Of a stretch of 64,000 bases of DNA, positions 3,270-38,134 are shown piece after piece. This stretch comes from Brachybacterium fresconis (lineage in GTDB: Bacteria > Actinomycetota > Actinomycetes > Actinomycetales > Dermabacteraceae): the NCBI RefSeq assembly GCF_017876515.1, contig NZ_JAGIOC010000001.1, positions 310,001 to 374,000 of the forward strand. Reading direction: 5' to 3'. Numbering within the stretch: position 1 is the stretch's first letter; every line of letters begins with the position of its first letter. The notes beneath the pieces were generated by a model. It had not been told where the DNA came from. It did not search any database and was given only the letters and a program-made list of their open reading frames with translations. Both the position numbers and the translations under genes were made by a program.

Positions 3270-4714
3270 GGCTCTTCCCGGTTCGTGGTGATGGGGAGCG
3301 TCGCGTCGTTGGCGTAGAACGGCTCGTGGTCCTGCTGTGATGGGTGTTGTCAAGACATCCACATTCCAGAGGACCACGAGCCTGTGCACGAGAATACTGG
3401 TTCGCAGCGGGATGCTGCGAGCACGATCTTCAACCTGCCCAACTACCGCGTCATCGATGCCGTCGACCTGCCCGATGGCAGCCGGCGGGTGGTGATCGCC
3501 TCGACCGTCCCGCCGGGCTGTCCGTCCTGCGGGGCGCTCGCGACGCAGGTCCACTCCCGCCGGATGCAGCAAGTCAGGGACGTTCCCGTCGCCGGGGCGA
3601 CGGTGGTGGTGTGGGCCAAGCGGCGCTGGTTCTGTCTCGAGCCGGCCTGCGCCCGGGGCACGTTCGCTGAGGCCACCGAGCAGATCCCCCGATACGCCCG
3701 CTCGACCACCAGGCTGCGCGATCAAGTCGTCTCGGCCGTGATCACCTCCGGCCGGGCAGCTTCCGAGGTCGCCCGGGCCCACGGCGTCTCGTGGTGGCTG
3801 GTCCAGGCCGCCCTCAGCGCCGCTGCCGTGGTCCTGACCGACGTCGAGAAGACGTGCGTGACCCGGCTGGGCATCGATGAGCACCGCTACCGGTCAGTGC
3901 GCTGGTTCCGCACCGATCAGGGCTCCTGGAGGCGGTTCGAGCCGTGGATGACGACACTGGTCGACCTGGCCACCGGGCAGGTCCTGGGCATCGTCGACGG
4001 CCGCGACAGCGCCACCGTCGGGGACTGGCTCGCCCAGCGCTCCGAGGCCTGGCGGGAGCGGATCGAGATCGTCGCGATCGACCCCTCGGCCGCGTTCCGC
4101 AAAGCACTACGGACCTACCTGCCCCGCGCCGCGGTCTCGGTCGACAAGTTCCACCTCGTAAAGCTCGGCAACGACATGGTCACCACCATCAGGCAGCGCC
4201 TGGCCCGCACCCACCGCGGTCGCCGGGGCCGCAAGGACGACCCGGCCTGGGCCCACCGGATGCTGCTGCTACGCGGCGGCGACACCCTCACCCCGCGAGC
4301 CTGGGAGCGGCTCGAGGACGTGTTCCGCACCGATGACCCCACCGACGAGCTCTCCGCCGCCTGGGGCATCAAGGAGCAACTCCGCCGCCTGCTGGCCACC
4401 GACACCCTCGCCCAGGCCTGGGACGAACGGATGCGGATGGGCTACTTCGCCCAGATCGCGAACATGCCCGAGGCGACAAAGCTCTACGACACCGTCGTGG
4501 CCTGGTGGGACGCGATCGAGGTCCTCATCGTCACCGGCGCGACCACCGCCCGCGTCGAGGCCGCGAACACCGGCATCAAGAACATCAAACGCACCGGCCG
4601 CGGATTCCGCAACGCGGAGAACTACCGGATGCGTATCCTGCTGACCAGCGCCGCGAGAACCGTAGCGTGAACACCCTCCACAGCAGGGTCATTCACCACG
4701 AACCGCGAAGAGCC
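3270..4714 (+). mobile_element. ISL3-family element, copy 1, 1445 bp
   Basis: The terminal inverted repeats are about 22 bp (GGCTCTTCCCGG... at 3270; the other end reads GGCTCTTCGCGG... inwards from 4714) with one mismatch. An exact 8-bp target duplication, CGTATACC, lies at 3262-3269 and 4715-4722. The same element with different flanks lies inverted at 52375-53819. Confidence 0.95.
3384..4670 (+). CDS. ISL3-family transposase (copy 1)
   Basis: 428-aa transposase: an N-terminal zinc-finger-like segment (CPSCGALATQVHSRR, then WFCLEPAC), an HTH region around residues 100-140, then the DDE core with Asp in RLGIDEHRYRS, Asp in EIVAIDPSAAFRKAL and the C-terminal Glu in ARVEAANTGIKNIKR. GTG start. 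The product is identical over its whole length to that of the copy at 52419-53705, so one copy arose from the other very recently or both came from a common recent source. Confidence 0.95.
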   Translation: MHENTGSQRDAASTIFNLPNYRVIDAVDLPDGSRRVVIASTVPPGCPSCGALATQVHSRRMQQVRDVPVAGATVVVWAKRRWFCLEPACARGTFAEATEQIPRYARSTTRLRDQVVSAVITSGRAASEVARAHGVSWWLVQAALSAAAVVLTDVEKTCVTRLGIDEHRYRSVRWFRTDQGSWRRFEPWMTTLVDLATGQVLGIVDGRDSATVGDWLAQRSEAWRERIEIVAIDPSAAFRKALRTYLPRAAVSVDKFHLVKLGNDMVTTIRQRLARTHRGRRGRKDDPAWAHRMLLLRGGDTLTPRAWERLEDVFRTDDPTDELSAAWGIKEQLRRLLATDTLAQAWDERMRMGYFAQIANMPEATKLYDTVVAWWDAIEVLIVTGATTARVEAANTGIKNIKRTGRGFRNAENYRMRILLTSAARTVA

Positions 4715-7861: not shown

Positions 7862-10060
7862 TCAGTGGCGAGCCCGGACGGCGGCGACGGTCGCTTCCGG
7901 ACGCAGGTCGAGGCGTCGCAGGAGCTGGGCGTTCAGGGCGACGACGATGGTGGACAGGGACATGAGGATCGCGCCGACGGACATCGGCAGCACGAATCCG
8001 ATGGGGGCGAGGATTCCGGCCGCGAGTGGCACGGACAGCAGGTTGTAGCCGGCTGCCCACCAGAGGTTCTGCTTCATCTTGCGGTAGGCGGCTCGGGAGA
8101 GTTCGATGACCGAGAGTACCGAGCGTGGATCGGAGCTGGCGAGCACGACCCCGGCGGAGGCGATCGCGACGTCGGTGCCGGCACCGATGGCGATGCCGAC
8201 ATCTGCCTGAGCGAGTGCAGGGGCGTCGTTGACGCCGTCGCCGACCATCGCGACCTTCTTGCCCTCCTTCTGGAGCTGGACGACCTTCGAGGACTTGTCC
8301 TCGGGGCGCACCCCAGCGAAAACCCTGTCGATTCCGAGCTCCTTGCCGACACTGTTCGCGACCGCCTCGGCGTCGCCGGTGATCATGACGACCTCGACGT
8401 CCAAACTGTGCAGAGCATCGATGGCGTCGCGAGATTCGGGGCGCACCTCATCGGTGAGCTTGAGACCGCCGATCACCTCGCCGTCGCGGAGGACGTGGAG
8501 GATGATCGCGCCCTCCTGGCGCCAGGCCTCAGCCTCGTCGACTTCGCTCACTCCGGTTTCCTCGAGCAAGCGGGGACCGCCCACGCGGATCTCGTGCCCA
8601 TCCACCTGGGCACTCACGCCCAGCGCCGGGGTGGAGCTGACGTCAGAGCCCGCAGGAATCTGTGCTCCCTCGGCCTGAGCCTTGGCGACGATGGCGCGGG
8701 CGAGCGGGTGCTCGCTCTCCGCTTCGGCGGCAGCTGCCAGGGCCAGCACCTCGGTCTCGTCCGCACCGCGGGTGATGATCTCGGCGAGGGCGGGCTCGCC
8801 CTTGGTGAGGGTGCCGGTCTTGTCGAACAGGACGGCGTCGACGGTGCGCATTGCTTCCAGGGCCAGACGGTCCTTCACCAGAACACCGCCGCGGGCGGCC
8901 CGCTCGGTGGCGATGGAGACGACCAGCGGGATCGCGAGCCCCAGCGCGTGAGGGCAGGCGATGACCAGGACGGTCACTGTGCGAACAACGGCATCATCGG
9001 GCATGCCGAGCAGTGACCAGGTGATCGCGGTGATCACGGCGGCGCCGAGAGCGAACCAGAACAGCCACGCCGCAGCGGTATCTGCGATGCGCTGTGCGCG
9101 GGACGAGGAGTTCTGTGCTTCGGTCACCAGGCGCTGTATACCGGCGAGGGCGGTGTCGTCGCCCGTGGCGGTGACCTCGATGCGGAGGCTGGAGTCGGTG
9201 GCGACGGTGCCTGCCACGACGGAGTCTCCGGTGGAGCGCGTCACGGGGCGGGACTCGCCGGTGACCATGGACTCGTCCACGTCGGCGCGGCCTTCGCGGA
9301 TCGTGCCGTCGGCCGGGACGCTCGCCCCGGGGCGGACGAGGACGAGGTCGCCTCGCTGCAGCTCGGTGGGCGAGATGCTCACGAGCTCGTCGCCTTCGAT
9401 GCGTTCTGCCATGTCCGGGAGCAGGGCGGCCAGGGAGTCGAGTGCGGAGGTGGTCTGGGCGAGGGAACGCATCTCGACCCAGTGGCCCAGCAGCATGATC
9501 ACGATCAGCAGGGCGAGCTCCCACCAGAACTCGAGCTGGTGGTCGAGGAGGCCGAGGGTCGCACCCCAGGAGGCGATGAACGCGACCGTGATCGCGAGCC
9601 CGATCAGGAGCATCATCCCGGGCTGACGGGAACGGACCTCGGAGACGGCACCGGTGAGGAACGGGCGGCCACCCCAGACGTACATGACTGTGCCGAGGGC
9701 CGGGGCGATCCCCATCGCGCCGGGGACATCGGGAATGCTGTACCCGAGCAGCATCGCGAACATCGGCGAGAACACGACAACTGGGACCGCGATGATCAGG
9801 TTGATCCAGAACAACCGCCGGAACTGCCCGACGTGGTCCCCGTGACCGGCGTGACCCCCGTGCCCTGAATGACCCTCGTGTTCCAAGTGGTCCTCGTGGT
9901 CTCCGTGAGTTCCGTGGTCGTGATGCGCGTCGGGTGCGTCGTGCTCAGCAATACCGGTGTGGGCGCCATGAGGCGTGGGGGAAGGATGAGAGTGCTGCAT
10001 GCCGGGTTCTCCGTGGTCGTGACGGTGTGGGTGGTTGCCAGCGTTCATGCACCCGACCAT
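7862..10060 (-). CDS. copB: CopB-type copper P1B-ATPase with His-rich N-terminus
   Basis: 732-aa P-type ATPase. The first about 80 residues hold about 20 His in DH/GH repeats and no HMA Cys motif. Then come eight membrane segments, the actuator SMVTGESRPV, the membrane metal motif CPH in VLVIACPHALGLAIP, phosphorylation site DKTGTLTKGE, hinge [14 protein letters not shown], and a C-terminal pair of helices. CPH rather than CPC places it in the P1B-3 (CopB) group, which exports Cu(II)/Cu(I) or silver. ATG 10060 abuts the CsoR operator; ATG 10048 four codons later is an alternative and would leave a short leader. csoR follows 26 bp downstream. Confidence 0.93.
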   Translation of the reverse strand: MVGCMNAGNHPHRHDHGEPGMQHSHPSPTPHGAHTGIAEHDAPDAHHDHGTHGDHEDHLEHEGHSGHGGHAGHGDHVGQFRRLFWINLIIAVPVVVFSPMFAMLLGYSIPDVPGAMGIAPALGTVMYVWGGRPFLTGAVSEVRSRQPGMMLLIGLAITVAFIASWGATLGLLDHQLEFWWELALLIVIMLLGHWVEMRSLAQTTSALDSLAALLPDMAERIEGDELVSISPTELQRGDLVLVRPGASVPADGTIREGRADVDESMVTGESRPVTRSTGDSVVAGTVATDSSLRIEVTATGDDTALAGIQRLVTEAQNSSSRAQRIADTAAAWLFWFALGAAVITAITWSLLGMPDDAVVRTVTVLVIACPHALGLAIPLVVSIATERAARGGVLVKDRLALEAMRTVDAVLFDKTGTLTKGEPALAEIITRGADETEVLALAAAAEAESEHPLARAIVAKAQAEGAQIPAGSDVSSTPALGVSAQVDGHEIRVGGPRLLEETGVSEVDEAEAWRQEGAIILHVLRDGEVIGGLKLTDEVRPESRDAIDALHSLDVEVVMITGDAEAVANSVGKELGIDRVFAGVRPEDKSSKVVQLQKEGKKVAMVGDGVNDAPALAQADVGIAIGAGTDVAIASAGVVLASSDPRSVLSVIELSRAAYRKMKQNLWWAAGYNLLSVPLAAGILAPIGFVLPMSVGAILMSLSTIVVALNAQLLRRLDLRPEATVAAVRARH

Positions 10061-10061
10061 A

Positions 10062-10076
10062 TACCCCTAGGGGGTA
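10062..10076 (-). promoter_or_regulatory. CsoR operator upstream of copB
   Basis: The palindrome TACCCCTAGGGGGTA matches the TACCC-N5-GGGTA CsoR core. It sits directly at the copB start, and the stop codon of the upstream oxidoreductase (TAG, 10067-10069 on the minus strand) lies inside it, so the operator doubles as the 3' end of the previous gene. Confidence 0.8.
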
Positions 10077-13954: not shown

Positions 13955-14905
13955 TCAGTGACCATCCGGGTGCGCATCGGCGCTCTCGTTCTCGGTGCCC
14001 TGCTCCGCTTGCACGACGAACTGCGCGGTGTGCACCTCGCCATCGATCTGGAAGTCCAGGTAGAGGTAGTAGCGGCCGGCCGTGGGGGCATCCGCCATGA
14101 AGGAGATCTCCGGGCCGGAGGTCTCCCCGGGTACCGGGTCCTCGCCCTCGGCGTGGACGTGGAGGTACTCCATATCGCCCTCGCGCAGGGCGACGAGATG
14201 GCCGAAGGCGCCGAGGTAGGGCTCCAAGGTGGTTACCGGAGCGCCGTCCTGGGTGACGCTCAGTGTGAGGTCGTTGGAGGTCCCGGCAGTCAGGTCCCCG
14301 TCCAGAGTCACTTCGAACCCGTCGACCTCGTCCTTCGCGGAGAGGGGACGGTCGGTGACCGGCGTGAGTTCGCTGGCAACGTCAACGGTTCGCGACAGCG
14401 TCAGGGTGTCCTCACCGTCGCCGGTGGGGGCGAAGTCGGCATAGATCTTGTACGTACCGGCTTCCTCCCACTGCCAGGGCAGGGACCAGCTCCCGGTGGA
14501 CGGGTCCAGCTCCGGGTGTACATGGCGGTATTGGGTGCCGTCGGTGCGGACCACGATCAGGTGCATCTCCTTCTCGTGTGCCTCCTGATACTCCGTGAGG
14601 GGGCTCCCGTCGGGGCCGGTGATCGTGTAGACGAGCTCTCCGGACTCCGCCGCGGACTGCGGAGCGGAGACCTCAGACAGCACATAGCCCTGCGAGGACA
14701 TCGATACTCCCTTCTGCGGTGCGGTCTCGGGCTGCGCATCCGCGCCTCCACCGTGGTCGGGATCGTCGTGCGAGGTGTCGGCTGCCTGCGCCGACCATCT
14801 CTCGACGACCCGGTCCGGGACGACGGCGCCGGCTGCGACGAATGCGCCGCCGAAGGTCACTGCGAGAGCAGCGCCGTAGGCGATCAGTCGTCCCGCGGCA
14901 TTCAT
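13955..14905 (-). CDS. Exported copper-cluster protein (FixH/DUF-like two-domain)
   Basis: 316 aa. An N-terminal membrane anchor or signal (LIAYGAALAVTFGGAFVAAG), an acidic His-containing linker, then two beta-rich domains: one with HLIVVRTDGTQYRHVHPELD and GTYKIYADFAPTG, the second with YLGAFGHLVALREGDMEYLHVH and YYLYLDFQIDGEVHTAQF. The HVHPELD/YLHVH histidines look like a metal site. Such proteins sit beside copZ/copA in many actinobacterial copper operons, probably as extracytoplasmic copper binders. It overlaps copZ by 4 bp (ATGA), showing translational coupling. Confidence 0.75.
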   Translation of the reverse strand: MNAAGRLIAYGAALAVTFGGAFVAAGAVVPDRVVERWSAQAADTSHDDPDHGGGADAQPETAPQKGVSMSSQGYVLSEVSAPQSAAESGELVYTITGPDGSPLTEYQEAHEKEMHLIVVRTDGTQYRHVHPELDPSTGSWSLPWQWEEAGTYKIYADFAPTGDGEDTLTLSRTVDVASELTPVTDRPLSAKDEVDGFEVTLDGDLTAGTSNDLTLSVTQDGAPVTTLEPYLGAFGHLVALREGDMEYLHVHAEGEDPVPGETSGPEISFMADAPTAGRYYLYLDFQIDGEVHTAQFVVQAEQGTENESADAHPDGH

Positions 14906-15137: not shown

Positions 15138-15187
15138 TACCCCCACGGGGTATCGTTCCAGGATTGAGGCTATACCCCCTCCCGGTA
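15138..15187 (-). promoter_or_regulatory. CsoR operator(s) upstream of copZ
   Basis: The first site, TACCCCCACGGGGTA at 15138-15152, is a clean TACCC-N5-GGGTA palindrome 23 bp before copZ. A second, imperfect one, TACCCCCTCCCGGTA at 15173-15187, lies 20 bp further upstream. The two sites suggest tight CsoR control of the copZ-copA operon. Confidence 0.8.
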
Positions 15188-18475: not shown

Positions 18476-19909
18476 TTAGAACAGCAGGGGTCCTTCCAGA
18501 GCCGCCCACAGGAAACCGGCCAGGATGCCGAGCCCCAGGCTCGCGGTGGCAGCCACCCCGGCGGTGGCTGCCGGCCAGGTGGCCGCTCCGCCCGGGCGGG
18601 GGAAGCTAGCGCCGTTATCGGTAGGACGGGCGAACGCGGGCGCGAACCAGCGCAGGTAGTAGAACAGGCTGAGCACGCTGTTGAGCATCACGACCAGCGC
18701 CAACCAGCCGTGCCCGCCGTCCCAGGCTGCGGTGGCGGTGGTGAGCTTGCCGACGAACACGGCCAGCGGTGGGGTGCCCACCAGGCCCAGCAGCGCGACG
18801 AGCAGAGCCAGGGCCAGCCCGGGGCGGGACCGGGCCAGACCTCGGTAGTCACTCAGCTCGCGGTGGTGGGGCAGCGCTGCGGTGACGGCGAAGGCGGCGA
18901 CGTTGGCCAGGGCATAGGCGGCGAGGTAGAACAAGAATGAGGGCAGTGCCAGATCACTGCGACCCGCCGCGGCCACCGGGACGAGCAGGAACCCGACCTG
19001 GGCCACGGTCGACCAGCCCAGCAGCCGGCGGGGATCGGTCTGCCAGTACGCGGCAAGGTTGCCCACGACCATGGAGGTCGTGGCCAGCACGCCTGCGACG
19101 ACCAGCCAGGAGCCGTCGCCTTCGGAGATCGTGGCCACGAATCGGTAGACGGCTACCAGCGCTCCGATCTTGGGGACCGTGGTCAGGAACGTCGCGGCGG
19201 TGCCGCCGGTGCCCTGTGTGGCGTCGGGTACCCAGAAGTGCAGGGGCACGCCGCCGGCCTTGAACAGCAACCCGGCGAGCACGCCCAGCACGCCGACCCC
19301 CACGGCTGCGGCCGGGGCCCCGGGTAGCACGTCCCGCAGCAGGGCGTAGTCGGTGCCCCCGGCCACGGCGTAGAGCACGGTGACCCCGAGCATGAGCAGG
19401 ATCCCGGACAACGCGCCCATGAGGTAGGTCTTCATCGCCGCTTCGGCCCCGGCCCGGCCGCCGGTCAGGCCGATAATCCCGTACAAGGGGATGCTGACCA
19501 GCAGGAATCCGGCTACGAGCACGAGCAGGTCGGTGGTTCCGGCTAGCACCATCACCCCGGTGGTGGCGAAGAGCAGCAGCGCGTAGGTGTCGGACTCTCG
19601 CGGCGAGCCGGCGAGTTCCCCGGAGGCCACCCCGAGGACCAACAGGGTCGTCAGGGCCGCGATTATCCGGGCGGCTCCGGTGGCGACGTCCACAGCGAAG
19701 GTGCCTGAGAACGCGCTCTGTTCGGGGCCGGTCATCGCCACGGCGGCGGCGACCGTGGCACCGAGCAGGGCTACCGCGGCGACGGCGCGGGCGATCCACT
19801 GCCGCTGGCGGGGCAGGAATGAGCCGCCCAGCAGCACCACCAGGCCGCCGATGAAGACGAGGATCTCCGGCAGCAGCAGGGCGGGCCGCATCTGCATCGA
19901 GGCCTCCAC
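18476..19909 (-). CDS. nuoN: NuoN-like subunit of an orphan Complex I membrane arm
   Basis: 477 aa, about 14 membrane helices, homologous to the antiporter-like subunit NuoN. Pump residues kept: the Lys of TM7/8 in LLFKAGGVPLHFWVPDA and TTVPKIGALVAVYRF, and the TM12 Lys in GTPPLAVFVGKLTT. The TM5 Glu expected in the Glu-Leu-Leu-Ser-Ile-Pro-Leu-Tyr motif is missing: the sequence is GFLLVSIPLYGIIGL. It is the last gene of the minus-strand operon that begins with nuoA at 28044, 3 bp after nuoM. Without NuoE/F/G/I nearby, canonical NADH oxidation is not supported. Confidence 0.88.
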   Translation of the reverse strand: MEASMQMRPALLLPEILVFIGGLVVLLGGSFLPRQRQWIARAVAAVALLGATVAAAVAMTGPEQSAFSGTFAVDVATGAARIIAALTTLLVLGVASGELAGSPRESDTYALLLFATTGVMVLAGTTDLLVLVAGFLLVSIPLYGIIGLTGGRAGAEAAMKTYLMGALSGILLMLGVTVLYAVAGGTDYALLRDVLPGAPAAAVGVGVLGVLAGLLFKAGGVPLHFWVPDATQGTGGTAATFLTTVPKIGALVAVYRFVATISEGDGSWLVVAGVLATTSMVVGNLAAYWQTDPRRLLGWSTVAQVGFLLVPVAAAGRSDLALPSFLFYLAAYALANVAAFAVTAALPHHRELSDYRGLARSRPGLALALLVALLGLVGTPPLAVFVGKLTTATAAWDGGHGWLALVVMLNSVLSLFYYLRWFAPAFARPTDNGASFPRPGGAATWPAATAGVAATASLGLGILAGFLWAALEGPLLF

Positions 19910-19912
19910 CGG

Positions 19913-21409
19913 TTACCTCCCGACCAAGGAGACCAGGGCCGCGGAGGCCGGCTCGATCACCTCGAGCAGGACTCGAGGCAGCACCCCGATGAGCACGGAC
20001 AGGGCCAGCAGCGGACCGACCGACCACAGCTCCCGGACGCGCAGATCCGCGAACCCGGGCGATCGGCCCTCCGTGGGGCCGGTGAACACTTGCTGCAGCG
20101 CCCGCAGGAACAGGGCGGCCGTGACCAGGATGCCCGGCAGGGCGATGGCGGTGACCGGGGCGACCGCGATGCTGCCGGCGAAGATCTGGAACTCGGCGAT
20201 GAATCCGGAGAACCCGGGCAGGCCCAGGGAGGCGAAGGCACCGACCGCGAACAGCGCCGCATACCGCGGCGCGGGACCGGCCAGGCCTCCGTAGGAACCC
20301 ATGTCATAGGTGCCGGCCCGATCCTGCATCACCCCCGCCAGCAGGAACAGCGCGGCGGTGATCAACCCGTGGCTGACCATCTGCACCACCGCACCGGTGA
20401 CCGCCACCGAGCGGGCCTGCTCGGCGCCCTCGGCGACCAGACCCGCCGCACCCAGGGCCAGGACGATGTAGCCCATATGATTGACGGAGGTGTAGGCCAC
20501 CATCCGCTTGAGGTCCGTCTGAGCCAGCGCCACGAACGCTCCGTACAGCACCGAGACGATACCGATCGCCACGATCACCCAGGCCCAGGACCGCCACGCC
20601 TCCGGGAGCATCGGCATGGCGATGCGCACGAACCCATAGGTCCCCATCTTCAGCAACACCGCAGCCAGCACGGCCGAACCGGTCGCCGGGGCGTCGGTGT
20701 GGGCCGGTGGCAACCAGGTATGGAAGGGAACGGTGGGGGTCTTCACCGCGAGACCGACCACGATCGCCGCCAGCACCAGCCCCCCGGTCAGCGGGCTGTC
20801 ATCGAGCGGGGTGGCCGCGACAAGCTCGGGGATGTCGAAGGTGTGCGGTGCGGCGGCCACGTAGAGCCCGATAAAGCCCAGCAGCAGGGCCAGTGATCCC
20901 AGAAACGTGTAGAGGAAGAACTTCAGGGCCGAGCGGGCAGCGTTGCCATGGCCCCATCCGGCGATCACGAAGTACATGCCCACGATCGAGAGATCGAAGA
21001 ACACGAAGAACAGGATGAGGTCGGCTGCCACGAACACCCCCAGACTCACGCCCTGCAGGAACAGGAACAGGGCCGCCTGAATCCGGGGCCGGTCGGGCTG
21101 GCGCAGGGCGTAGACGGCACAGGCCAGGAACACGATCGTCGTCATGGCCACCAGCGGTAACGAGAGACCATCCACGCCCACGTGATAGCTGCTGTTCACC
21201 CCCGGGATCCACGGCACCTGCTGCTCGTACGCCAGTGCGTTTTGCCCCGGGTCCTCATAACCGACCCACAGCACTCCGACGAGCACCAGCTCGACCGCGC
21301 TCACGGCGACCCAGGCCCAGCGGGCGACCGCAGGGCCGACCGCCGGCATCGCCGCCAGGACGACGGCGCCGGCCAGGGGCAGGAAAACGATCAGACTCAG
21401 CATGCTCAT
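19913..21409 (-). CDS. nuoM: NuoM-like antiporter subunit
   Basis: 498 aa, about 14 membrane helices. NuoM landmarks: LFFVFFDLSIVGMYFVIAGW in TM5, KFFLYTFLGSLALLLGF, and the broken-helix segment PFHTWLPPAHTDAPATGSA with LLKMGTYGFVRI. The TM5 acidic residue, normally Glu (FWExMLxPMY), is Asp here. The conserved Lys residues of TM7/8 are present. It overlaps nuoL by 4 bp (ATGA). Confidence 0.9.
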   Translation of the reverse strand: MSMLSLIVFLPLAGAVVLAAMPAVGPAVARWAWVAVSAVELVLVGVLWVGYEDPGQNALAYEQQVPWIPGVNSSYHVGVDGLSLPLVAMTTIVFLACAVYALRQPDRPRIQAALFLFLQGVSLGVFVAADLILFFVFFDLSIVGMYFVIAGWGHGNAARSALKFFLYTFLGSLALLLGFIGLYVAAAPHTFDIPELVAATPLDDSPLTGGLVLAAIVVGLAVKTPTVPFHTWLPPAHTDAPATGSAVLAAVLLKMGTYGFVRIAMPMLPEAWRSWAWVIVAIGIVSVLYGAFVALAQTDLKRMVAYTSVNHMGYIVLALGAAGLVAEGAEQARSVAVTGAVVQMVSHGLITAALFLLAGVMQDRAGTYDMGSYGGLAGPAPRYAALFAVGAFASLGLPGFSGFIAEFQIFAGSIAVAPVTAIALPGILVTAALFLRALQQVFTGPTEGRSPGFADLRVRELWSVGPLLALSVLIGVLPRVLLEVIEPASAALVSLVGR

Positions 21410-23319
21410 CCCATCACGGCATAGACGGACCAGGCCACGACGCCGATCGCGAGGACCGCGACGGCCTGGAGGAAGTACTGGTGGATGGCTCCGGTCTGCG
21501 GGATCCGGGCCAGATGCCCGAGCCGGCGGACCCGACCGGCGAGGATCTCCACCCCACGGTCCACTCCGTCGTCATCGACCCTCGCCGCCAGGTGACCGGT
21601 CACGTCGACGGCGTGCGCGGTGGCGTCGAACCCGGCGTCGAGAAACCGGTCGTCGGCACGGGCGGCGATTCGCGCTAGCACAGGCACCGCCCCGGCGGCG
21701 GCCATCACGGTGCGGTCCAGGACGTGGTCATCGAACCGAGCCAGGGCGTGCGCCAGGGACAGGGACGGGCGGACGACGACGGCATGCGCGATCCTCTCCA
21801 GCCCCAGCCACTCACGGGCCCATCTCGGCTCGGGGGCGCGTAGCCGCAGCATCAGCAGCAGCACGGCCGCCGCGATCACGGCCGAGAGAGCCAGCTCGAC
21901 GGCCGAGACCTCGCCGTGCCCGCCCAGGGCCTGGGCGAGGGCCCGGCTGAGCGGGGGCAGAGCGAGCACGACGAGCCCGGCCGCGCCGGTGGCCAGCACG
22001 ACCAGCGGCGCCTGCGCCAGGGCCCCCACCTGGCCGGTGCCGCCCGCACGGACTCCCGCGCCGTCCCCGCGGCGCCAGATCGCCCACAGGGCCTTGCCGG
22101 CATAGGCGGCCGACAGGGCGGACGCCAGCAACCCGGCGGCATAGAGCCACGGGGAGGCCTCGAGCGCAGCAGCCAGCACGGCGTCCTTGGTCGCCCACAG
22201 GGACAGCGGGGCGATCCCCGCCAGGGCCAGCGCCCCCACGCTCGCGCAGACCCCGACAACCCGCCACCGACGCCCCACTCCGCGTAGTCTCGCGAGATCT
22301 TCGGTGCCCACCGCCGTCAACCATGCCCCGGCAGCCAGGAAGAGCAGGGCCTTGGTGGAGGCGTGCGCCACCAGATGGGCCGCGCCGCCACTGACCGCGC
22401 CGACGCCGGCAGCGAGAACGACGAACCCCAGCTGGGCGACCGTGGAGGCGGCCAGGAGCTGTTTGAGCTCCCGCTGGGCCAGCGCCACGATGCCCATCAG
22501 CACCGCGGTGAGCATCCCGAGCCAGGCGGCGACTGGCCCGGCCCACCCGGTCGCAGCCAACAACGGCTCCACGCGCAGAAGCAGAAAGCCGCCCATGGCC
22601 ACCATCGCCGCTGAGTGCAGCAGCGCGCTCACCGGGCTGGGACCCTGCATCGCCCCGGAGAGCCAGAACGAGAAGGGCAGCTGTGCGGCCTTCCCCAGGG
22701 CAGCGACCAGGATCCCGGCCGCGACGACGTGGCGCCACGGGTCCGTCGCGGCGGGGAGGTCAGCCAGCGCCATTCCTGCTCCGCCGGCCAGGGCGGCGCC
22801 GGCGGCGACGTAGAGGCCCAGGTCGGCGGTGCGGGTGGTGAGGAAGGCGGTGAGCCCCGCCGAGACCCGGTGCGGTTCCCGCCACCAGAACCCGATCAGG
22901 GCGTAGGAGGTCGCGCCCATCACCTCCCAAGCGAACAGCAGCGCCGGGATACTGGCGGCGGAGGCCGTGACCAAGGCCGCGGCGGAGAAGATCAGCATCA
23001 GCCCGTGGAAGCGGGCCCGGGACTCCCGGATGCTCCCAGCCGCGAAGACCAGCACCAGGAAGGTCACCGCGGCGATCATCGGTGCGGTCAGCGCCGCAAG
23101 GGCATCCACCTCCAGTGCGAAGTCGGCGCCGGCCAGGAACGGGGACGACAGCGCCGGCCTGGCCAGGGCGACGACTGCCGCCAGTGCCGTGGTGAGCCCA
23201 GCGGTGGCCACCGCGATCGGTGTCGCAACGCGTTCCCACCGGCGGGTCAGGGCCAGCGCGGCGCCCATGCCCCCCGGGAGCAGCACCATGGCGAGCAACG
23301 CGCCCTCGGCCCCGCTCAT
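21406..23319 (-). CDS. nuoL: NuoL-like antiporter subunit
   Basis: 637 aa from ATG 23319, overlapping nuoK by 4 bp. TM5 Glu is present (LLFAWEVMGATSYALIGFWW), as are the TM7 Lys (GKAAQLPFSFWLSGAMQGPS) and the loop PVSALLHSAAMVAMGGFLLL, where the second usual His/Thr is Ser-Ala. The C-terminal part ends in a single helix after a hydrophilic stretch and is shorter than the long amphipathic HL helix of E. coli NuoL. It forms the distal pump of the membrane arm. Confidence 0.9.
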   Translation of the reverse strand: MSGAEGALLAMVLLPGGMGAALALTRRWERVATPIAVATAGLTTALAAVVALARPALSSPFLAGADFALEVDALAALTAPMIAAVTFLVLVFAAGSIRESRARFHGLMLIFSAAALVTASAASIPALLFAWEVMGATSYALIGFWWREPHRVSAGLTAFLTTRTADLGLYVAAGAALAGGAGMALADLPAATDPWRHVVAAGILVAALGKAAQLPFSFWLSGAMQGPSPVSALLHSAAMVAMGGFLLLRVEPLLAATGWAGPVAAWLGMLTAVLMGIVALAQRELKQLLAASTVAQLGFVVLAAGVGAVSGGAAHLVAHASTKALLFLAAGAWLTAVGTEDLARLRGVGRRWRVVGVCASVGALALAGIAPLSLWATKDAVLAAALEASPWLYAAGLLASALSAAYAGKALWAIWRRGDGAGVRAGGTGQVGALAQAPLVVLATGAAGLVVLALPPLSRALAQALGGHGEVSAVELALSAVIAAAVLLLMLRLRAPEPRWAREWLGLERIAHAVVVRPSLSLAHALARFDDHVLDRTVMAAAGAVPVLARIAARADDRFLDAGFDATAHAVDVTGHLAARVDDDGVDRGVEILAGRVRRLGHLARIPQTGAIHQYFLQAVAVLAIGVVAWSVYAVMG

Positions 23320-23618
23320 CGGGACAGCTCCTCGGCCATGTCCGTCATGTCGGTCTGGCGCCGGCGGTGCAGCAACGTGGCCACGGCGAAGCCCATGGCC
23401 ATCTCCACGGTCATCGCCGCCAGCACGACCAGCAGCAGCACCTGCCCGGAAGGGTCCGGGGCCAGGAACCACCAGAATCCGGCGGCGGCCAGCAACACCC
23501 CGTTGATCATCAGCTCCAGACCCATCATCACCATCACCACCACCTGCTGGGACAGCGCTCCGTAGAGGCCCACCGCGAACAGCGCGGCGGCCACCACCAG
23601 CACGGCTTCCAGGGTCAT
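23316..23618 (-). CDS. nuoK: NuoK-like subunit
   Basis: 100 aa, three membrane helices. The two membrane Glu residues essential in NuoK are both present (MGLELMINGVLLA and LAAMTVEMAMGFAV), so the E-channel acidic pair is intact. It overlaps nuoJ and nuoL by 4 bp each. The Met content is high. Confidence 0.9.
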   Translation of the reverse strand: MTLEAVLVVAAALFAVGLYGALSQQVVVMVMMGLELMINGVLLAAAGFWWFLAPDPSGQVLLLVVLAAMTVEMAMGFAVATLLHRRRQTDMTDMAEELSR

Positions 23619-24178
23619 CGGCCCACACCCCCCGGCTGGGGATCGTCGGCCGGCCGGCGGCGTAGGTCGTCACCGAACCGGTCGTAGCGGGTGCGATGAG
23701 CGGCCAGCACCACCCCGGACACGATGGTTGCCACCAGGACCGCACCCACCACGACCATGACCAGCATCTTCTCGTCCATGATCGCCAAGCCGATCGCCTG
23801 CGTGAGGTCCTCGGGCGGGGCGCCGCGTCGCTCCGGCCAGGGGATGAGCAGGGCGCCGGCAGCCAGCAGCCCGAAAACGCCGGCCGAGGCGCCGATCGCC
23901 GTCTTCTTCCCGTGGGTCATGTCCATCGGCATCAGCGCCGGGTTCATGCCCATGAACATCACCATGTAAACAGCCATCACCGCCATCTCCATCACCATCA
24001 TCAAGATCGTGATGACCCCGAGATAGCTCTGCTGCAAGAGGAGGATCTGCACTCCCACGGCGATGAACGACAGCGCCAGGGCGTAGGTGGCCCGGGCCAT
24101 GGAGTCCACCACGAACACGGCTACGCCCGCGGCCACGGCCACCACGGCGAGTACCCAGAACACGATTGTGAACAGCAC
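23615..24178 (-). CDS. nuoJ: NuoJ-like subunit with a Met-dense core
   Basis: 187 aa, five predicted helices. The NuoJ TM3 region is LQQSYLGVITILMMVMEMAV. Residues 60-87 contain 12 Met in 28 positions (including MVMEMAVMAVYMVMFMGMNP), far denser than in respiratory NuoJ. Its C-tail is hydrophilic. It overlaps nuoK by 4 bp and starts 3 bp after the nuoH stop. The Met clustering resembles copper-handling membrane proteins, but it may simply be a trait of this subfamily. Confidence 0.87.
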   Translation of the reverse strand: MLFTIVFWVLAVVAVAAGVAVFVVDSMARATYALALSFIAVGVQILLLQQSYLGVITILMMVMEMAVMAVYMVMFMGMNPALMPMDMTHGKKTAIGASAGVFGLLAAGALLIPWPERRGAPPEDLTQAIGLAIMDEKMLVMVVVGAVLVATIVSGVVLAAHRTRYDRFGDDLRRRPADDPQPGGVGR

Positions 24179-24858
24179 GGTTCAGCCCTTCCCGACGACG
24201 ACGAGAGACACGACCAGGTCCTGGGCCACGGCCGCAGGCAGCAAGACCACCCACCCGATCTCCATGAACCGGTCCGGTCGGAACATCGGCAGCTTCCGCC
24301 GCAACCACACCAGCACGGTCAGCACCGCCACGGTCTTCACCAGCACCCACGCCCAGCCCGGCAGCACGGGCCCGGCGCCCCCGCCCAGGAACAGCGGTAC
24401 CGCGAAGGCCGCCCCGGCAGCCAACAACGCGTAGCGCCCGGCCAGGAAAACAAGGCGGTCCAACCCGGAGAGTTCACTCAGCACACCACCGGCAATGTCC
24501 GCGGAAAGGGCCGGGGCGAACGGGCCCCACACCGAGAACCCGGTCACCCCGATCAGATAGACCAGGAACGCCACCGGCATCCACACCACGAACCACAGGC
24601 CCTCCTGCGCGGCAGCCACCTCCCCGACGCGAAGACTGCCAGCCGCGATCGCCGGGGCCACCAGCGCAAACATCAAGGGGAGCTCGTATGCCAGCCCATG
24701 GGCAAGGAACCGGTAGCCACCCACCAGGCTGTGCGTCGAATTGGCGCCCCACCCGGCCAACCACACCAGGGCCCAGACCATGACGTCCACGGCGTTGAAC
24801 CACACCACCCCCACGTCCAGGTCCGCCAGCGTCCTGAATCGGCCCAGGTTCTCTGCCG

Positions 24859-25872
24859 CTACTTTGCGGGTTCGGGCTCTCGGTCGAGGGCCTCGTAGTG
24901 GAGCGTCTCGAACTCTACCGGGGTGAGCATCCCGAGGGAGCCGTGGAGACGCCGGTTGTTGTACCAGTCGACCCAGCCGGCGGTCGCGAACTCGACGTCC
25001 GAGAGCGTCCGGAAGGGGCCGGCGTGGAAGACCGTGGTGCGGATGCACTCGGTCTTGTACAGGCCGTTCACGCCCTCCATGAGGGCGTTGTCATACGCGT
25101 CGCCGACGGTCCCGATCGACGGGGCAATGCCCTCGAGGTCGAGGTGCTCGGTGTACCGGACCGAGGTGTACTGGGACCCGGCATCGCTGTGCGCTACCAA
25201 AGATCCTGGTGGGACCGGGTTTCCGTCGCGGTCGCGCTGCCACAGTGCGATCCGCAGCGGAGTCATCACCAGGTCGGTGCGCATGCTGGAGCTGGCGTGC
25301 CAGCCCACGATCCGCTGGGCGAACACGTCCACGACGAACGCGACATAGACGAACCCCGCCCACGTCCGGACATACGTGAAATCGGTGACCCAGACCCGGT
25401 CCGGAGCCGGAGCCGTGAAGTCACGACTCAGCAGGTCACCGGCACGTTTCCCATCCGGATTAGGGATGGTGGTGCGCAGCTTCTTCACCCGCCGCACGCC
25501 CTCGAGGCCAAGGGTCCGCATGGCCCGGTCGACCGCGCCGCGGGAGGTGCCGGCGAGGCCTTCTTGGCGGCGGAGCAAGGCAACCCACTTCCGTCGCCCG
25601 TACAAGCCCTCCGGCGTCATCTGCACCTGCCCGGTGACCGGGTTGAACTTCCATGCAAGCTCGCGGACCTTGTCCTCGACCAGAGCGTCTGTGACGGTGC
25701 GAGCAGCGATGCGGGCCGGCCGTTTCCAGGCCCGGTAGGTGCGTGCAGCGATCTCCAGGCCCTGCTGGCGCAGGACGCGGAGGATCGACTCGACTGCATA
25801 GCCCTCGGCGCGCATCTCGTCGATGAAGGCGAGGATCAGCGGTTGCGGGGGTCGAGCTCCCCCGCGAAGAAA
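24859..25872 (-). CDS. IS3-family transposase OrfB (integrase domain)
   Basis: Retroviral-type rve domain of IS3 elements: Asp in DRVWVTDFTYVRTWAGFVYV, Asp in LVAHSDAGSQYTSVRY and the Glu in DNALMEGVNGLYKTE, closing with WVDWYNNRRLHGSLGMLTPVEFE. It has no own start; the frame joins orfA by a -1 frameshift around the TTTTC run near 25870 (minus strand), giving an OrfAB fusion, as usual for the family. Confidence 0.9.
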   Translation of the reverse strand, partial: FLRGGARPPQPLILAFIDEMRAEGYAVESILRVLRQQGLEIAARTYRAWKRPARIAARTVTDALVEDKVRELAWKFNPVTGQVQMTPEGLYGRRKWVALLRRQEGLAGTSRGAVDRAMRTLGLEGVRRVKKLRTTIPNPDGKRAGDLLSRDFTAPAPDRVWVTDFTYVRTWAGFVYVAFVVDVFAQRIVGWHASSSMRTDLVMTPLRIALWQRDRDGNPVPPGSLVAHSDAGSQYTSVRYTEHLDLEGIAPSIGTVGDAYDNALMEGVNGLYKTECIRTTVFHAGPFRTLSDVEFATAGWVDWYNNRRLHGSLGMLTPVEFETLHYEALDREPEPAK

Positions 25873-26147
25873 ATTGAGGCCCGGCGGAGGATCTCGTTGT
25901 CCTCCCGCAATCGCTTGACCTCGGCCTTCAGTCGTTTGACCTCGGCGGATTCTTCGGTCGTGGTGCCGGGACGGGACCCGTCGTCGACCTCGGCCTGGGC
26001 CAGCCAGCGCCGCACGGACTCCCGCGAGACGCCCTCTTGGCGGGCGACCGCGGCCGTCGCCGCGGTCAGGGTGGGGTACTCCTGGGCGTGCTCGCGCACG
26101 AGCCGCACGCACCTCGCGCGCAGCTGGGGATCGATCTTCTTCGGCAT
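25836..26147 (-). CDS. IS3-family OrfA (HTH protein)
   Basis: About 103 aa from ATG 26147 (GAGAGGATGG upstream; ATG 26156 also possible). HTH_Tnp_1 region with KKIDPQLRARCVRLVREHAQ and ARQEGVSRESVRRWLAQAEV, then a leucine-zipper-like helix EVKRLKAEVKRLREDNEILR. It supplies DNA binding and is the 5' partner of the frameshifted OrfAB transposase. Confidence 0.88.
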   Translation of the reverse strand: MPKKIDPQLRARCVRLVREHAQEYPTLTAATAAVARQEGVSRESVRRWLAQAEVDDGSRPGTTTEESAEVKRLKAEVKRLREDNEILRRASIFFAGELDPRNR

Positions 26148-26458
26148 GCTGTCCATCCTCTCGGACTCAAACAGCAGCGGCATCAAACCTGGGCCGATTC
26201 ACCGCGACCATTACGAACGCCCCGACCAGCAGGCCCGCGCCACCGATCCGCCACAGCAGCGTGTCCGCGGCCACGGTGGTCCGGCGCCGCTGCCGCAGCA
26301 GCCGCGCGGTGCGGGCCACGGGCGCCACCCAACCACCGGAGGCGCCGTGGGCGCGAGCGGACAATGCCGCCTCCAGAGCAACAGCGAAGAACGCGAGGCC
26401 GCCCAGAATGATGGCTGCCAGTACGGCCCATCCGGCAGAGACGGTCGTCACCACGGAC

Positions 26459-27709
26459 TCAGACATGCCTCGCCTCCTGGACGGCCGGGAACGGAACAAG
26501 ATCCAAGCTCGCCACCGCCAGCCGCACAGAGGCCACTTCCACCCCTGGCACCAGGTGCGGCACAATCTCCCAAGGCACCACACCTGTCTCGATCGGCGCC
26601 ACGGGCTCCTCGTTGCGTGTCTCGGCCCGGATCACGTCGAGGCTCCACAGCAACCGGTCGTGGGCGTCCCCGAGACAACGGCTCGGCAAGCCATGACGCT
26701 CTAGATCAGCGGAGGTGAGAGGCAGAACGCTCCGCAGAGACCAACGCAGCAGCCGCGATTTCCGCACTGTGCGGTACAACCGCTCAACGGCGTCCTGGGC
26801 AGCATCTTGTTCGCCGTGCAGCAGTGTGTCCCGGGCATGGCGGGCACGGGCTGCCGCATCTTCCGCCCCCGCAAGTGCCAGCAACGCCAGGGCACTGTCA
26901 CACCGCACCGCCGGGGACACGGGGCCGGGACGCTTCGCCTGCACCGGAGTCCCGTAGCCCCCACCATCGATCACAGCTGCCTCGGCGTCGACCACGACAT
27001 CGCCCTGCAACGAGCAGCGAAGGACCAGCCCTGCCGGCCAGAACGGCAAGACAGGACCCAGCGCCAGATGCAGGACATCCATCTCCAGACCGTCACGGTC
27101 TTCCCCGCCCTGGGCCAACGGAATGCCCCCCGGAGCCATGTCCATTCCGCCGTGGCCGCCATGACCCTCGTGGCTCTCGTGGCCGCCATGACCCTCGTGG
27201 CCGCCATGGCCGTCGTGGTTCTCGTGGCCCGCCTGGTCATGTTCCATCTCGCCATGGTCTGGGTTCCTCATACCGGGGTGTTCTTCGGGGGGCGTCCCGT
27301 CGTGCTCACCATGGTCGAGGTCCCCGTCGTCCATGTCGTTGGAGTCGTCAGAAAGCTGAGGTTCCTGCAGTCGGCCCTGCGCATCTGCTCTATGACCGGG
27401 AGTGTCGAGAAGGAGGTCAGCGGCGGTGCGTAGAGCCAATGCCACAGCGTCGGGCGAGCTGATGCTGGTGCGTACCCGCGGACCGGGCATCTGCTCCCAG
27501 ATGAGGTCCACCAGTTCCGCCAGTTCAGGGCCGGGCACGCCGCACACCGCAAGGACGTCCGCATCGGCTGGGGTCCACGCCCGTCGCCATCCACGGCGCA
27601 GCATCTGATGTTCGAGCTCCACACGTATCGACCACTGGCCCGGCGGCTCGACAACGAGGACGTGGGCAGCACGGACGGCGAGTCCGGCGAGGAGTTCGTT
27701 CAGACCCAT
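26459..27709 (-). CDS. NuoB/NuoD-like fusion with His-rich linker, no N2 cysteines
   Basis: 416 aa from ATG 27709, overlapping nuoA by 10 bp and nuoH by 8 bp. Residues about 15-82 follow the C-terminal half of NuoB (ADADVLAVCGVPGPELAELV then IWEQMPGPRVRTSI, compare ADxxxVxGxxxxKMAPxLRxxYxQMPEPRxVISMG). Residues 133-186 hold 14 His in GH/EH/DH repeats. Residues about 205-250 follow the N-terminal sheet of NuoD (LALGPVLPFWPAGLVLRCSL). Only four scattered Cys occur and no CC motif, so the N2 Fe-S cluster cannot form. I infer a peripheral cap on the membrane arm, perhaps metal-binding. It could also be a regulatory subunit. Confidence 0.7.
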   Translation of the reverse strand: MGLNELLAGLAVRAAHVLVVEPPGQWSIRVELEHQMLRRGWRRAWTPADADVLAVCGVPGPELAELVDLIWEQMPGPRVRTSISSPDAVALALRTAADLLLDTPGHRADAQGRLQEPQLSDDSNDMDDGDLDHGEHDGTPPEEHPGMRNPDHGEMEHDQAGHENHDGHGGHEGHGGHESHEGHGGHGGMDMAPGGIPLAQGGEDRDGLEMDVLHLALGPVLPFWPAGLVLRCSLQGDVVVDAEAAVIDGGGYGTPVQAKRPGPVSPAVRCDSALALLALAGAEDAAARARHARDTLLHGEQDAAQDAVERLYRTVRKSRLLRWSLRSVLPLTSADLERHGLPSRCLGDAHDRLLWSLDVIRAETRNEEPVAPIETGVVPWEIVPHLVPGVEVASVRLAVASLDLVPFPAVQEARHV

Positions 27710-28044
27710 CGAAACGCCCCTTCCCGCCAAGCCCAGGCCACAGCGACAAGCAGAGCGCCGAGAAAGAGGAACATCTCGACGACTGCGGAGAGCCCCTTCT
27801 CAATCACGACCACGGCCCAGGGGTACATGAACAGCATCTCGACGTCGAAGGCCAGGAAGATGATGGACGCAAGATACCAACGCACGTGGAAGCGCGATAG
27901 GGCGTGCTCCTGGGGCACCCATCCAGATTGGGCAGGCAACGAGGTCAACGGATCGACGTGAACCGTCAAGACACGATGCGCCGCGAACAGCGCCACGAGG
28001 GTCAGCATCGCCACCAAGGCCATGGCCACAATCCCGAAATACAT
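27700..28044 (-). CDS. nuoA: NuoA-like subunit
   Basis: 114 aa, three helices, first gene of the operon. NuoA signature: ALSRFHVRWYLASIIFLAFD followed by VEMLFMYPWAVVV, with the conserved Asp/Glu (FDVE) of the NuoA TM1-2 region present. Start ATG 28044 with GAAAGGT about 7 bp upstream; an extended frame to 28092 lacks a ribosome site. Confidence 0.9.
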   Translation of the reverse strand: MYFGIVAMALVAMLTLVALFAAHRVLTVHVDPLTSLPAQSGWVPQEHALSRFHVRWYLASIIFLAFDVEMLFMYPWAVVVIEKGLSAVVEMFLFLGALLVAVAWAWREGAFRWV

Positions 28045-28138
28045 CACGATCCGACCTTTCGGCAGGGCGGGGCATAGAGCTCTGGGCTCCATGATAGGGA
28101 GGAACCCACCGTAGCGAGATCTTCCCTCTCACTCTGAA

Positions 28139-28461: not shown

Positions 28462-29964
28462 TCAGGGCGCGTAGTCGATGCCGGTCATCATGCCGACCTC
28501 CTGGTGGTACGCGTTGTGGCAGTGCGCTGCCCACCGGCCCGGATTGTCCGCATCGAAGTCGAGGGCGAACGATTCCATAGGCGCGAGCATCACCGTGTCC
28601 TTCCGGAGCCCCGACGGCAGGGCGAAGGTATGCCCGTGGATGTGGAGGGGGTGGCTCATCATCGTCTGGTTGGTCGCGAGGATGCGCGCACGCTGTCCCT
28701 CGCGGATGCTGAGTGGCGTGTTCTGCCCGTAGGGGGCGCCGTTGATGGCCCATTGGTACGGCCGCATCGAGCCTTGGAACGCGAGCTCGAGCTCGGTGTC
28801 GACGGCGCGGTCCTCGAGTCGCGCGGCCTCGGCCGGTTCCAGAGTGGATCCGATGAGGACCTCCCCATCGAGCTCCCGGACCTGGACGTCCGCAGCGGGC
28901 GCTTCCCCGGCACCGGTCCTCAGCACGGCGAGCCCTTGGCCGCCGCTGGGTTTCCCGACGGGACGGGCCACCAGAGGGAACATGCCGTCCTTCACGGTGA
29001 CCACCACGTCGTACCGTTCGCCCATGCCGAGATAGAGCGCCTTGGCGGTGACCGGTTCGACGGGGAATCCGTCCGATTGGGTGACGGAGAGGTCGTGGTC
29101 GCCGAGCGCGAGGGCGAAGATGGTGTCGGCGGAGGCGTTGATCATGCGGATGCGCACGCGCTGGCCGGGCTTCGCGTCGAAGATCTGCGGTGCTTCGGGG
29201 ATCCGGCCGTTGATGAGGAAGTGGGGGTAGGCCACGTCACCGGCGTCGCCCCAGGGTGCGTTCCCCATCGGCATGCCGCCGTGGTCCATGCCGCCAGGTC
29301 CGTCGTCGCCCATGGGCATGTCGCCGTGGTCCATGCCGCCGCCATCCGAAGGCCGGGCGCCGGTCAGCGCGGCCAGGACCTCGTCGGGGGTCTGTCCGGT
29401 GCCATCGATCCAGTCATCGAGGGTCACGATCCATTCCGCATCGTAGTCACCGGGTTCGTCGGGATCGTCGATGATCAGCGGTGCGTAGAGCCCGCGGTCC
29501 AGCTGCAGGCCGACGTGGGAGTGGAGGAAGTAGGTGCCGGGGTCGGGGGCGACGAACTCGTAGCTGAAAGAGGTGTCTGGCTCGACCGGGTCCTGGGTCA
29601 TTCCGGGCACCCCGTCGGCTGCGTTGTGCAGTCGGATGCCGTGCCAGTGGATCGTGGAGGCCTCGGGCAGGCGGTTCTCGAGCGTGATGCGCAGCAGATC
29701 CCCGGCCGTGGCGCGGATCAGCGGCCCGGGGAGGGACTCGCCGTATGCCCAGGTCGAGACCGTCTTCCCTCCGAGGTCCACCGTCGTCGGCGCCGCGGCG
29801 AGGGTCTGGGTGACGACGTTCTGACCGGCTTTCGGCGTCAGGGCAGGAGGCGGTGCGAAGCCTCCAACTTCGGTCGGAGCGGCTCGGTCGCCACATGCCG
29901 CGAGCGTCAGTGCTGCCGCGCCGAGGCCTCCGGAGAACACGGTGCGGCGGGAAAAAGTCTTCAC
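28462..29964 (-). CDS. Multicopper oxidase (CueO/laccase-like), Tat lipoprotein
   Basis: About 500 aa from GTG 29964 (AGAAGGA upstream). Tat signal SRRTVFSGGLGAAALTLAACG with lipobox LAAC. Copper sites: THWHG-type TIHWHGIRLHN, YFLHSHVGLQ, HPLHIHGHTF and HCHNAYHQEVGMM with the axial Met (T1, T2 and T3 ligands complete). A Met/His-rich insert around residues 240-270 (MDHGDMPMGDD repeats) resembles CueO's cuprous-oxidase segment. Likely oxidises Cu(I) to Cu(II) outside the membrane. Regulation by the adjacent two-component system is plausible. Confidence 0.93.
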   Translation of the reverse strand: MKTFSRRTVFSGGLGAAALTLAACGDRAAPTEVGGFAPPPALTPKAGQNVVTQTLAAAPTTVDLGGKTVSTWAYGESLPGPLIRATAGDLLRITLENRLPEASTIHWHGIRLHNAADGVPGMTQDPVEPDTSFSYEFVAPDPGTYFLHSHVGLQLDRGLYAPLIIDDPDEPGDYDAEWIVTLDDWIDGTGQTPDEVLAALTGARPSDGGGMDHGDMPMGDDGPGGMDHGGMPMGNAPWGDAGDVAYPHFLINGRIPEAPQIFDAKPGQRVRIRMINASADTIFALALGDHDLSVTQSDGFPVEPVTAKALYLGMGERYDVVVTVKDGMFPLVARPVGKPSGGQGLAVLRTGAGEAPAADVQVRELDGEVLIGSTLEPAEAARLEDRAVDTELELAFQGSMRPYQWAINGAPYGQNTPLSIREGQRARILATNQTMMSHPLHIHGHTFALPSGLRKDTVMLAPMESFALDFDADNPGRWAAHCHNAYHQEVGMMTGIDYAP

Positions 29965-29995
29965 AGGTGCAGTCCTTCTAGAGCGAGGGGTGGTG

Positions 29996-30232
29996 TCATG
30001 GCCGAAAGGCGTCCAAGACCAGCCGTCGTCGTTGCTCGAACTCATCGGCCGTGATCTCTCCTCGAGCCAGGCGCAGCGAGAGTTCCCCGATCGCCTCGTT
30101 CTCGTCCCGAGCGCGTCGGGGGCGCCCGGGCAACACGGTGCGTGCCAGCAGCAGCGCCGAGGCCCAGAGGAGGGCGAGCAGACCGGCGACGATCACCCAT
30201 ACCAGCCACGACATCGCATCGGTAGGCATCAT
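29996..30232 (-). CDS. SHOCT-domain membrane protein
   Basis: 78 aa. One N-terminal helix (WLVWVIVAGLLALLWASALLL) and a C-terminal SHOCT motif (LSLRLARGEITADEFEQRRR). SHOCT domains are short C-terminal interaction modules. It lies 31 bp upstream of the oxidase gene, probably in the same transcript, with the divergent two-component system on the other side. Confidence 0.75.
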   Translation of the reverse strand: MMPTDAMSWLVWVIVAGLLALLWASALLLARTVLPGRPRRARDENEAIGELSLRLARGEITADEFEQRRRLVLDAFRP

Positions 30233-38119: not shown

Positions 38120-38134
38120 TACCCCCGGAGGGTA
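38120..38134. promoter_or_regulatory. CsoR-like palindrome
   Basis: TACCCCCGGAGGGTA fits TACCC-N5-GGGTA with the same 15-bp length as the boxes before copZ and copB. It lies about 200 bp upstream of the NlpC/P60 gene and 170 bp past the lsr2 stop. It may be chance in GC-rich DNA. Confidence 0.35.

Follow-up and report, generated by a model that had tools for sequence, protein, structure and literature searches.

X, a 416 amino acid protein encoded at 26459..27709 on the minus strand of a 64,000-nucleotide stretch of Brachybacterium fresconis DNA (the window), is with near certainty a fusion of a NuoB fold and a NuoD fold, joined by a linker of the metal-binding type. Its gene belongs to a minus-strand operon that reads nuoA-X-nuoH-J-K-L-M-N, and contains no genes for NuoB, C, D, E, F, G, or I. 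Our preferred reading, given not quite even confidence, is that the X complex would be a redox-free, copper-responsive derivative of complex I, with pmf-driven export of Cu+ or another soft metal as its most plausible function. A sequence-only reading of the same DNA had proposed that X replaces the Q-module, and this part of the proposal is supported. X is encoded between nuoA and nuoH of a full membrane arm.

The N-half of X (residues 1-118; 27356..27709, minus) has a NuoB fold in which the four N2 Cys are missing. It is followed by a His-rich linker predicted to be disordered (residues 133-186; 27152..27313, minus) and by a C-half (residues 199-408; 26486..27115, minus) with a shortened, whole NuoD fold that lacks the quinone-binding His. 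In a Pfam search, X itself matched neither NuoB nor NuoD (PF00346) and was assigned to no family, and NCBIfam returned only weak NuoB matches (TIGR01957, 14.7 bits against a cut-off of 142.7). A profile of the N-halves of 76 relatives aligned with NuoB at an hhalign E value of 1e-6, and the hhalign comparison of the actinomycete C-half with NuoD was not significant. The NuoD identity of the C-half was settled because intermediate relatives match NuoD and because of the fold comparison. Intermediate relatives matched solved NuoD chains by phmmer (E=2e-12), and longer relatives with an equivalent operon matched PF00346 at up to E=6e-20 (49-72 bits against a cut-off of 24). Residues 199-408 of the X model span the whole NuoD chain (8e9h_D residues 36-439), with a VIA-align Z of 15.4 over 199 residues at 3.9 A. 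This AlphaFold2 model, built from an alignment of 63 relatives, has a pLDDT of at least 90 at 269 of its 416 residues and a disordered linker; the listed Foldseek matches in the PDB were all complex I-type chains, chiefly NuoD and NuoB. When modelled alone (AlphaFold2 pLDDT 91), the N-half matched NuoB, NDUFS7, and NdhK structures in the PDB with Z values up to 10.6 (Foldseek, VIA-align). The sequence-only reading had described X as a NuoB/NuoD fusion and had named structure prediction as a way to check it, with the lack of a NuoB or NuoD fold in either half as the refuting outcome. The prediction places a NuoB fold in the N-half and a NuoD fold in the C-half, so both folds are present and the fusion is not refuted; the NuoD part is a whole shortened NuoD and not, as had been claimed, the N-terminal sheet only.

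X contains 24 His, of which 14 fall within 54 residues (133-186), and its only Cys are at positions 56, 232, 270, and 345. The coordinates, the His cluster, and the four scattered Cys had all been given exactly by the earlier reading, which also held that the N2 ligands were lacking and asked for conserved Cys across homologues. Examination of the homologues revealed no invariant Cys in alignments of 12 and 63 relatives, and tandem CC was absent from all 76 N-halves analyzed. X is therefore without N2 ligands, as had been claimed. A group 4 NiFe hydrogenase or MBH identity was considered and rejected, since the CxxC pairs for the NiFe site are missing and none of the four Cys is invariant.

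Among the 76 relatives, His makes up 2.7% of the N-half, whereas 91% of the linkers carry at least four His (median 13), and the His content of the linker is therefore greater than expected by chance. The linker is His/Met-rich in most actinomycete relatives of X, and in deep actinobacteria and gammaproteobacteria it holds one to seven heavy-metal-binding domains (HMBD, PF19335), which were detected at up to E=8e-23, with E=4e-89 for a seven-copy member. Gammaproteobacterial X has up to seven HMBDs, and deep-branching actinobacterial X is a longer protein with NuoD above the Pfam cut-off and an HMBD in the linker. The His-rich linker is almost missing in a few members, and a Gly/Met-rich linker takes its place in L132, L133, L138, and Halomonas. 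Judged by its composition and domains, the putative metal-binding linker is a trait of the X family. The possibility that the His linker is a low-complexity accident was ruled out, as unrelated metal-binding HMBDs fill the equivalent place in distant relatives. The linker HMBDs match in sequence the HMBD N-termini of copper ATPases such as Legionella CopA (3rfu); in the CopA type the domain is appended to a P-type ATPase, whereas in X relatives it is inserted between the NuoB and NuoD folds. As separate observations, four members (L009, L010, L008, and L025) have a His-rich repeat at the X C-terminus, replacing or added to the linker repeat, and the NuoJ of Halomonas (L176) ends in GGHQHHHHH.

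In the window, nuoA (27700..28092, minus; PF00507 E=1e-22) encodes a TM1-2 loop with two His and a Met beside the E-channel Glu. A multicopper oxidase gene with an MDHGDM-type Met/His loop (28462..30045, minus) is located upstream of it in the same direction. An IS3-family insertion (24835..26198, minus) splits nuoH into a 5' part (26167..26466, minus), in which the match to intact nuoH stops at 26199 and the remainder is IS sequence, and a 3' part (24182..24834, minus; PF00146 E=2e-40). The operon continues, on the minus strand throughout, with nuoJ (23615..24178; PF00499), which encodes a TM3 methionine ladder followed by a Met/His motif, and nuoK (23316..23618; PF00420), whose product carries additional conserved Met flanking the two Glu. 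The last three genes all match PF00361: nuoL (21406..23322) retains the pump Lys/Glu/His, and the pump Lys is likewise retained in nuoM (19913..21409), with the TM5 Glu changed to Asp, and in nuoN (18476..19909), with the TM5 Glu changed to Leu. Homologues of NuoF, NuoG, and NuoI were not found near the operon. In the close relative Brachybacterium squillarum, the corresponding locus (L038) encodes an X that is 95% identical and has an intact nuoH, relative to which ~15 nuoH bases are missing at the IS3 junction. Because of the insertion and these missing bases, complex assembly is probably stopped and the operon of the window strain is probably inactive.

The order nuoA-X-nuoH-J-K-L-M-N was found at ~100 loci in two phyla, including some genomes without any complex I. 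All seven nuo subunits accompany X at 90 of 97 loci, and most of the remaining loci are truncated at a contig end; this co-occurrence is partly a sampling effect, because the loci were collected by similarity to X. The gammaproteobacterial set was found without X as query. A NuoJ profile search detected the X-type operon in 15 to 16 of 274 gammaproteobacteria, with 195 bits against 61 for canonical NuoJ. By tblastn, X was located on plasmids of Rhodococcus, Gordonia, Mycobacterium avium, Pseudonocardia, Arthrobacter, Curtobacterium, and others, with an identical gene order in every annotated plasmid locus inspected. When 84,980 species genomes were scanned, 270 X-like coding stretches were found, and the 80 that were fetched came from actinomycetes except for two from Lysobacter. 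X is present in ~30 of the 396 sampled genomes of the actinobacterial phylum, the raw tally of 120 being inflated by true NuoB matches. The host genome of the window strain has no NuoD, NuoB, or NuoF, and its only nuoH is the split copy; X is therefore no accessory of a resident complex I there. Five carrier genomes are without any NuoD or NuoB, and several other carriers have a full complex I. The idea that X borrows the cell's own complex I was ruled out by the carriers without NuoD or NuoB.

None of 76 actinobacterial relatives has the cluster N2 ligands or the quinone histidines of NuoD. The NuoD loop GPQHPSTHG reads GPVLPxWPAGL in the X family, and the His found at x in about one-third of the members matches neither canonical His position. 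In the NuoH of X-type operons, PFDLPEAExELVGG has become WGPFxPALGxDIAGG, with loss of the acidic loop between TM5 and TM6 and of the first amphipathic motif. The pump Lys of NuoL, NuoM, and NuoN is retained across X-type operons, together with the Asp and Leu replacements at TM5 of NuoM and NuoN. The NuoJ TM3-4 and NuoA TM1-2 loops are quinone-site loops in known complex I (PMC10036122), and new His/Met motifs sit in these same two loops in X-type operons.

Met makes up 13.9% of the NuoJ core in 83 X-type sequences and 13.2% in 12 deep relatives, compared with 3.8% in 30 canonical actinobacterial sequences. Nine NuoJ columns (60, 61, 65, 68, 72, 76, 78, 85, and 87) have Met in all 12 deep relatives; Met occupies these columns in at least 80% of X-type sequences and in 0-3% of the 30 canonical ones, all of which have Tyr at column 61. 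The conservation pattern of NuoJ H89, positioned after the helix, is like that of the nine Met columns. Five of the ladder Met lie within an 80-degree arc of NuoJ TM3, which is a modest departure from chance (p=0.03). In NuoK, Met rises to 10.0% from a canonical 4.4% and flanks both sides of the two Glu, and in NuoA it reaches 4.3% compared with 2.1%, with the sequence reading EMLFM at the E-channel Glu. The Met content of NuoL, NuoM, and NuoN is not raised, and that of NuoH is 2.9% compared with 2.3%. Together, the pump Lys and the Met of NuoA, NuoJ, and NuoK suggest that the complex may be functional as an ion or metal transporter and not a passive plug.

Metal genes occur within ~10 kb in 46 of 64 flanked loci and are absent in 18. 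The markers found in the 64 loci are a copper storage protein (18), CopZ (18), multicopper oxidase (16), DUF305 (16), a P1B ATPase (14), and CsoR (9). In relatives, a 3.7-Mb genome has about two to four copper ATPases that score above the family cut-off, so ~2% of 20-kb stretches would hold one by chance compared with the 22% seen, the background being an estimate. On a Halomonas plasmid, the operon adjoins copC, copD, a multicopper oxidase, copB, and a two-component system. The CsoR type-2 operator has the form TACCCC-N3-GGGGTA (PMC3902906). Of 96 loci, 13 have a predicted site of this type within the 200 bp that precede nuoA, compared with 40 of 4800 random windows taken from the 96 loci themselves (0.8%; Fisher 1e-11). 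None was found before six canonical nuo operons, and a CsoR-like site is absent upstream of nuoA in 83 of the 96 loci. The 13 operator loci include several related mycolicibacteria, whereas those of Arthrobacter, Cryobacterium, Gordonia, Rhodococcus, and others occur independently. In the window, no CsoR site is present upstream of nuoA or of the multicopper oxidase gene, even with a relaxed pattern, and CsoR-type palindromes precede two copper ATPase units (10062 and 15138). The metal link suggested by the sequence-only reading has thus been strengthened by the HMBDs of relatives, the copper gene neighborhoods, and the CsoR-type operators. Among individual neighbors, the storage-like proteins (Csp) of the 18 loci are Cys-rich and four-helix (e.g., L100 18176-18583 and L069 7167-7727), and MerR and mercuric-reductase-like genes adjoin the operon at L103 (14765-16698) and L198 (441-1760), suggesting that the metal may not always be copper.

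In the proposed mechanism, X would form the soluble lid of a redox-free complex I derivative. X may dock onto NuoA/H/J/K in the manner of NuoB and NuoD, which would bring the linker to the old quinone site, where it could capture a soft metal, most likely Cu+, from the cytoplasm. From the linker, the metal would pass to the NuoA TM1-2 and NuoJ TM3-4 loops, where the Met/His motifs would receive it, and would then travel along a putative conduit in which the NuoJ TM3 methionine ladder is joined by Met/Glu positions in NuoA and NuoK. The outward movement would be powered by protons flowing through NuoL/M/N, and copper regulators would control this pmf-driven exporter. A metal transport function of the X complex is possible, at a little below even probability. 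More tentatively, the complex could represent a new transporter class, in which a complex I arm has been re-purposed from quinone redox to metal binding and a Met/Glu-lined E-channel moves Cu+ or a soft metal, coupled to NuoL/M/N proton flow. The transport direction and the ion identity are guesses; export is the likelier direction because the neighbors are efflux, oxidation, and storage genes.

Other explanations of the operon have to be weighed against metal export. An Mrp-like Na+/H+ (or K+/H+) antiporter for salt or pH stress, with X sealing or regulating the complex and the metal motifs being secondary, is rather unlikely. In line with the published 'marine adaptation gene' interpretation, three papers describe the operon as the 'NDH-1 partial 2 operon' or partial nuo operon of marine actinomycetes and tie it to osmoadaptation in marine Salinispora, Kocuria, and Streptomyces (PMC3314556, PMC6002675, PMC6676996), and the retained antiporter Lys would also suit such a function. 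The gene order given in PMC6676996, nuoA - hypothetical protein - nuoH-J-K-L-M-N, is that of the X operon; within the available portions of these papers, the operon is attributed to salt adaptation and the hypothetical protein is not analyzed. The Mrp Na+/H+ antiporter resembles the X operon in having antiporter-like subunits without a redox module. Genes for MrpB, E, F, and G are lacking in the X operon, which instead encodes NuoA, NuoH, and a lid built of NuoB and NuoD folds. However, an antiporter of this kind leaves unexplained the metal linkers and HMBDs, the invariant Met of NuoA, NuoJ, and NuoK, the CsoR operators, and the copper islands, and one published carrier came from copper-rich mine fluid (PMC6676996). 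The present findings question the published salt-adaptation reading, to which, as far as the available portions of those papers extend, they add the fusion, the metal domains, the Met ladder, and the CsoR sites.

The metal-responsive plug or sensor put forward by the sequence-only reading, in which metal binding by the linker gates proton or cation flow and tunes the pmf under metal stress without the metal being moved, is unlikely. The position of the linker between two docking domains, its predicted disorder, its metal-ligand composition, and the copper linkage of the operon are consistent with such gating, but the invariant membrane-buried Met of NuoA, NuoJ, and NuoK, which are absent from canonical subunits, are not explained by it. 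Another proposal comes from Marinobacter atlanticus, in which nuoADHJKL lies inside a copper operon and is up-regulated with it, and for which Eddie et al. suggested energy from copper redox (PMC8233155). By its published description, this cluster is like the X operon in having complex I-like genes in a copper resistance operon and a 'NuoD' without redox partners, and it is reported without nuoM/N, unlike the X operon (PMC8233155). Its rise together with the copper operon also counts in favor of the metal-export reading. A copper-redox-driven pump, with linker copper as electron carrier to quinone or another acceptor, would also agree with the frequency of multicopper oxidases among the neighbors (16 of 64); it is quite improbable for the X complex, in which NuoH has lost its acidic loop and first amphipathic region at the quinone site, NuoD has lost its two quinone histidines, and no other redox subunit is encoded. 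The view of the operon as a decaying remnant, or as an accessory module using the soluble arm of the cell's complex I, could draw on the interrupted nuoH of the window strain and on the several carriers that also have a full complex I. It is highly improbable and largely refuted, given eight genes in fixed order in two phyla, invariant new motifs, and the five carrier genomes without NuoD or NuoB.

The X operon shares with complex I (NDH-1) the NuoB and NuoD folds, seven membrane subunits in nuo order, the pump Lys in L, M, and N, and the E-channel Glu in A and K. It differs from complex I in that NuoB and NuoD are fused by a metal-binding linker, the N2 Cys and quinone ligands are gone, C, E, F, G, and I are missing, NuoA/J/K are Met-rich, and the operon is linked to copper. 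How quinone-site chemistry is coupled to distant proton pumps in complex I is a long-standing question, and a natural relative with the pumps and the coupling region, no redox cofactor, and a putative metal-binding linker in the corresponding place would allow the pump half to be studied without electron transfer. If a metal is moved, the operon would represent a new pmf-driven metal efflux system that has spread on plasmids in actinomycetes and gammaproteobacteria, including Mycobacterium avium plasmids. Its genes are currently annotated as 'NADH dehydrogenase' and 'hypothetical protein'. A literature search that lay mostly outside subscription journals found no paper analyzing X, its metal domains, or the methionine ladder, and no papers on copper-induced nuo genes in actinobacteria.

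Several further features were observed in the window. The P-type ATPase encoded at 7862-10060 (minus) has a His-rich N-terminus (HHDHGTHGDHEDH...), and the palindrome at 10062 lies just 5' of its start. The palindrome at 15138 is upstream of the unit formed by 13955-14905 and copA. The gene at 13955-14905 (minus) encodes a 316 amino acid protein with HVHPE/HVHAE motifs and no Pfam match, possibly a periplasmic copper protein, and it adjoins copA both here and in B. squillarum. Another CsoR-type palindrome was found at 38120, near an NlpC/P60-like gene. Two transposase genes, at 3384-4670 (plus) and 52419-53705 (minus), encode identical 428 amino acid products in opposite orientation and bracket a ~49-kb segment containing the copper and nuo genes, possibly a mobile island.
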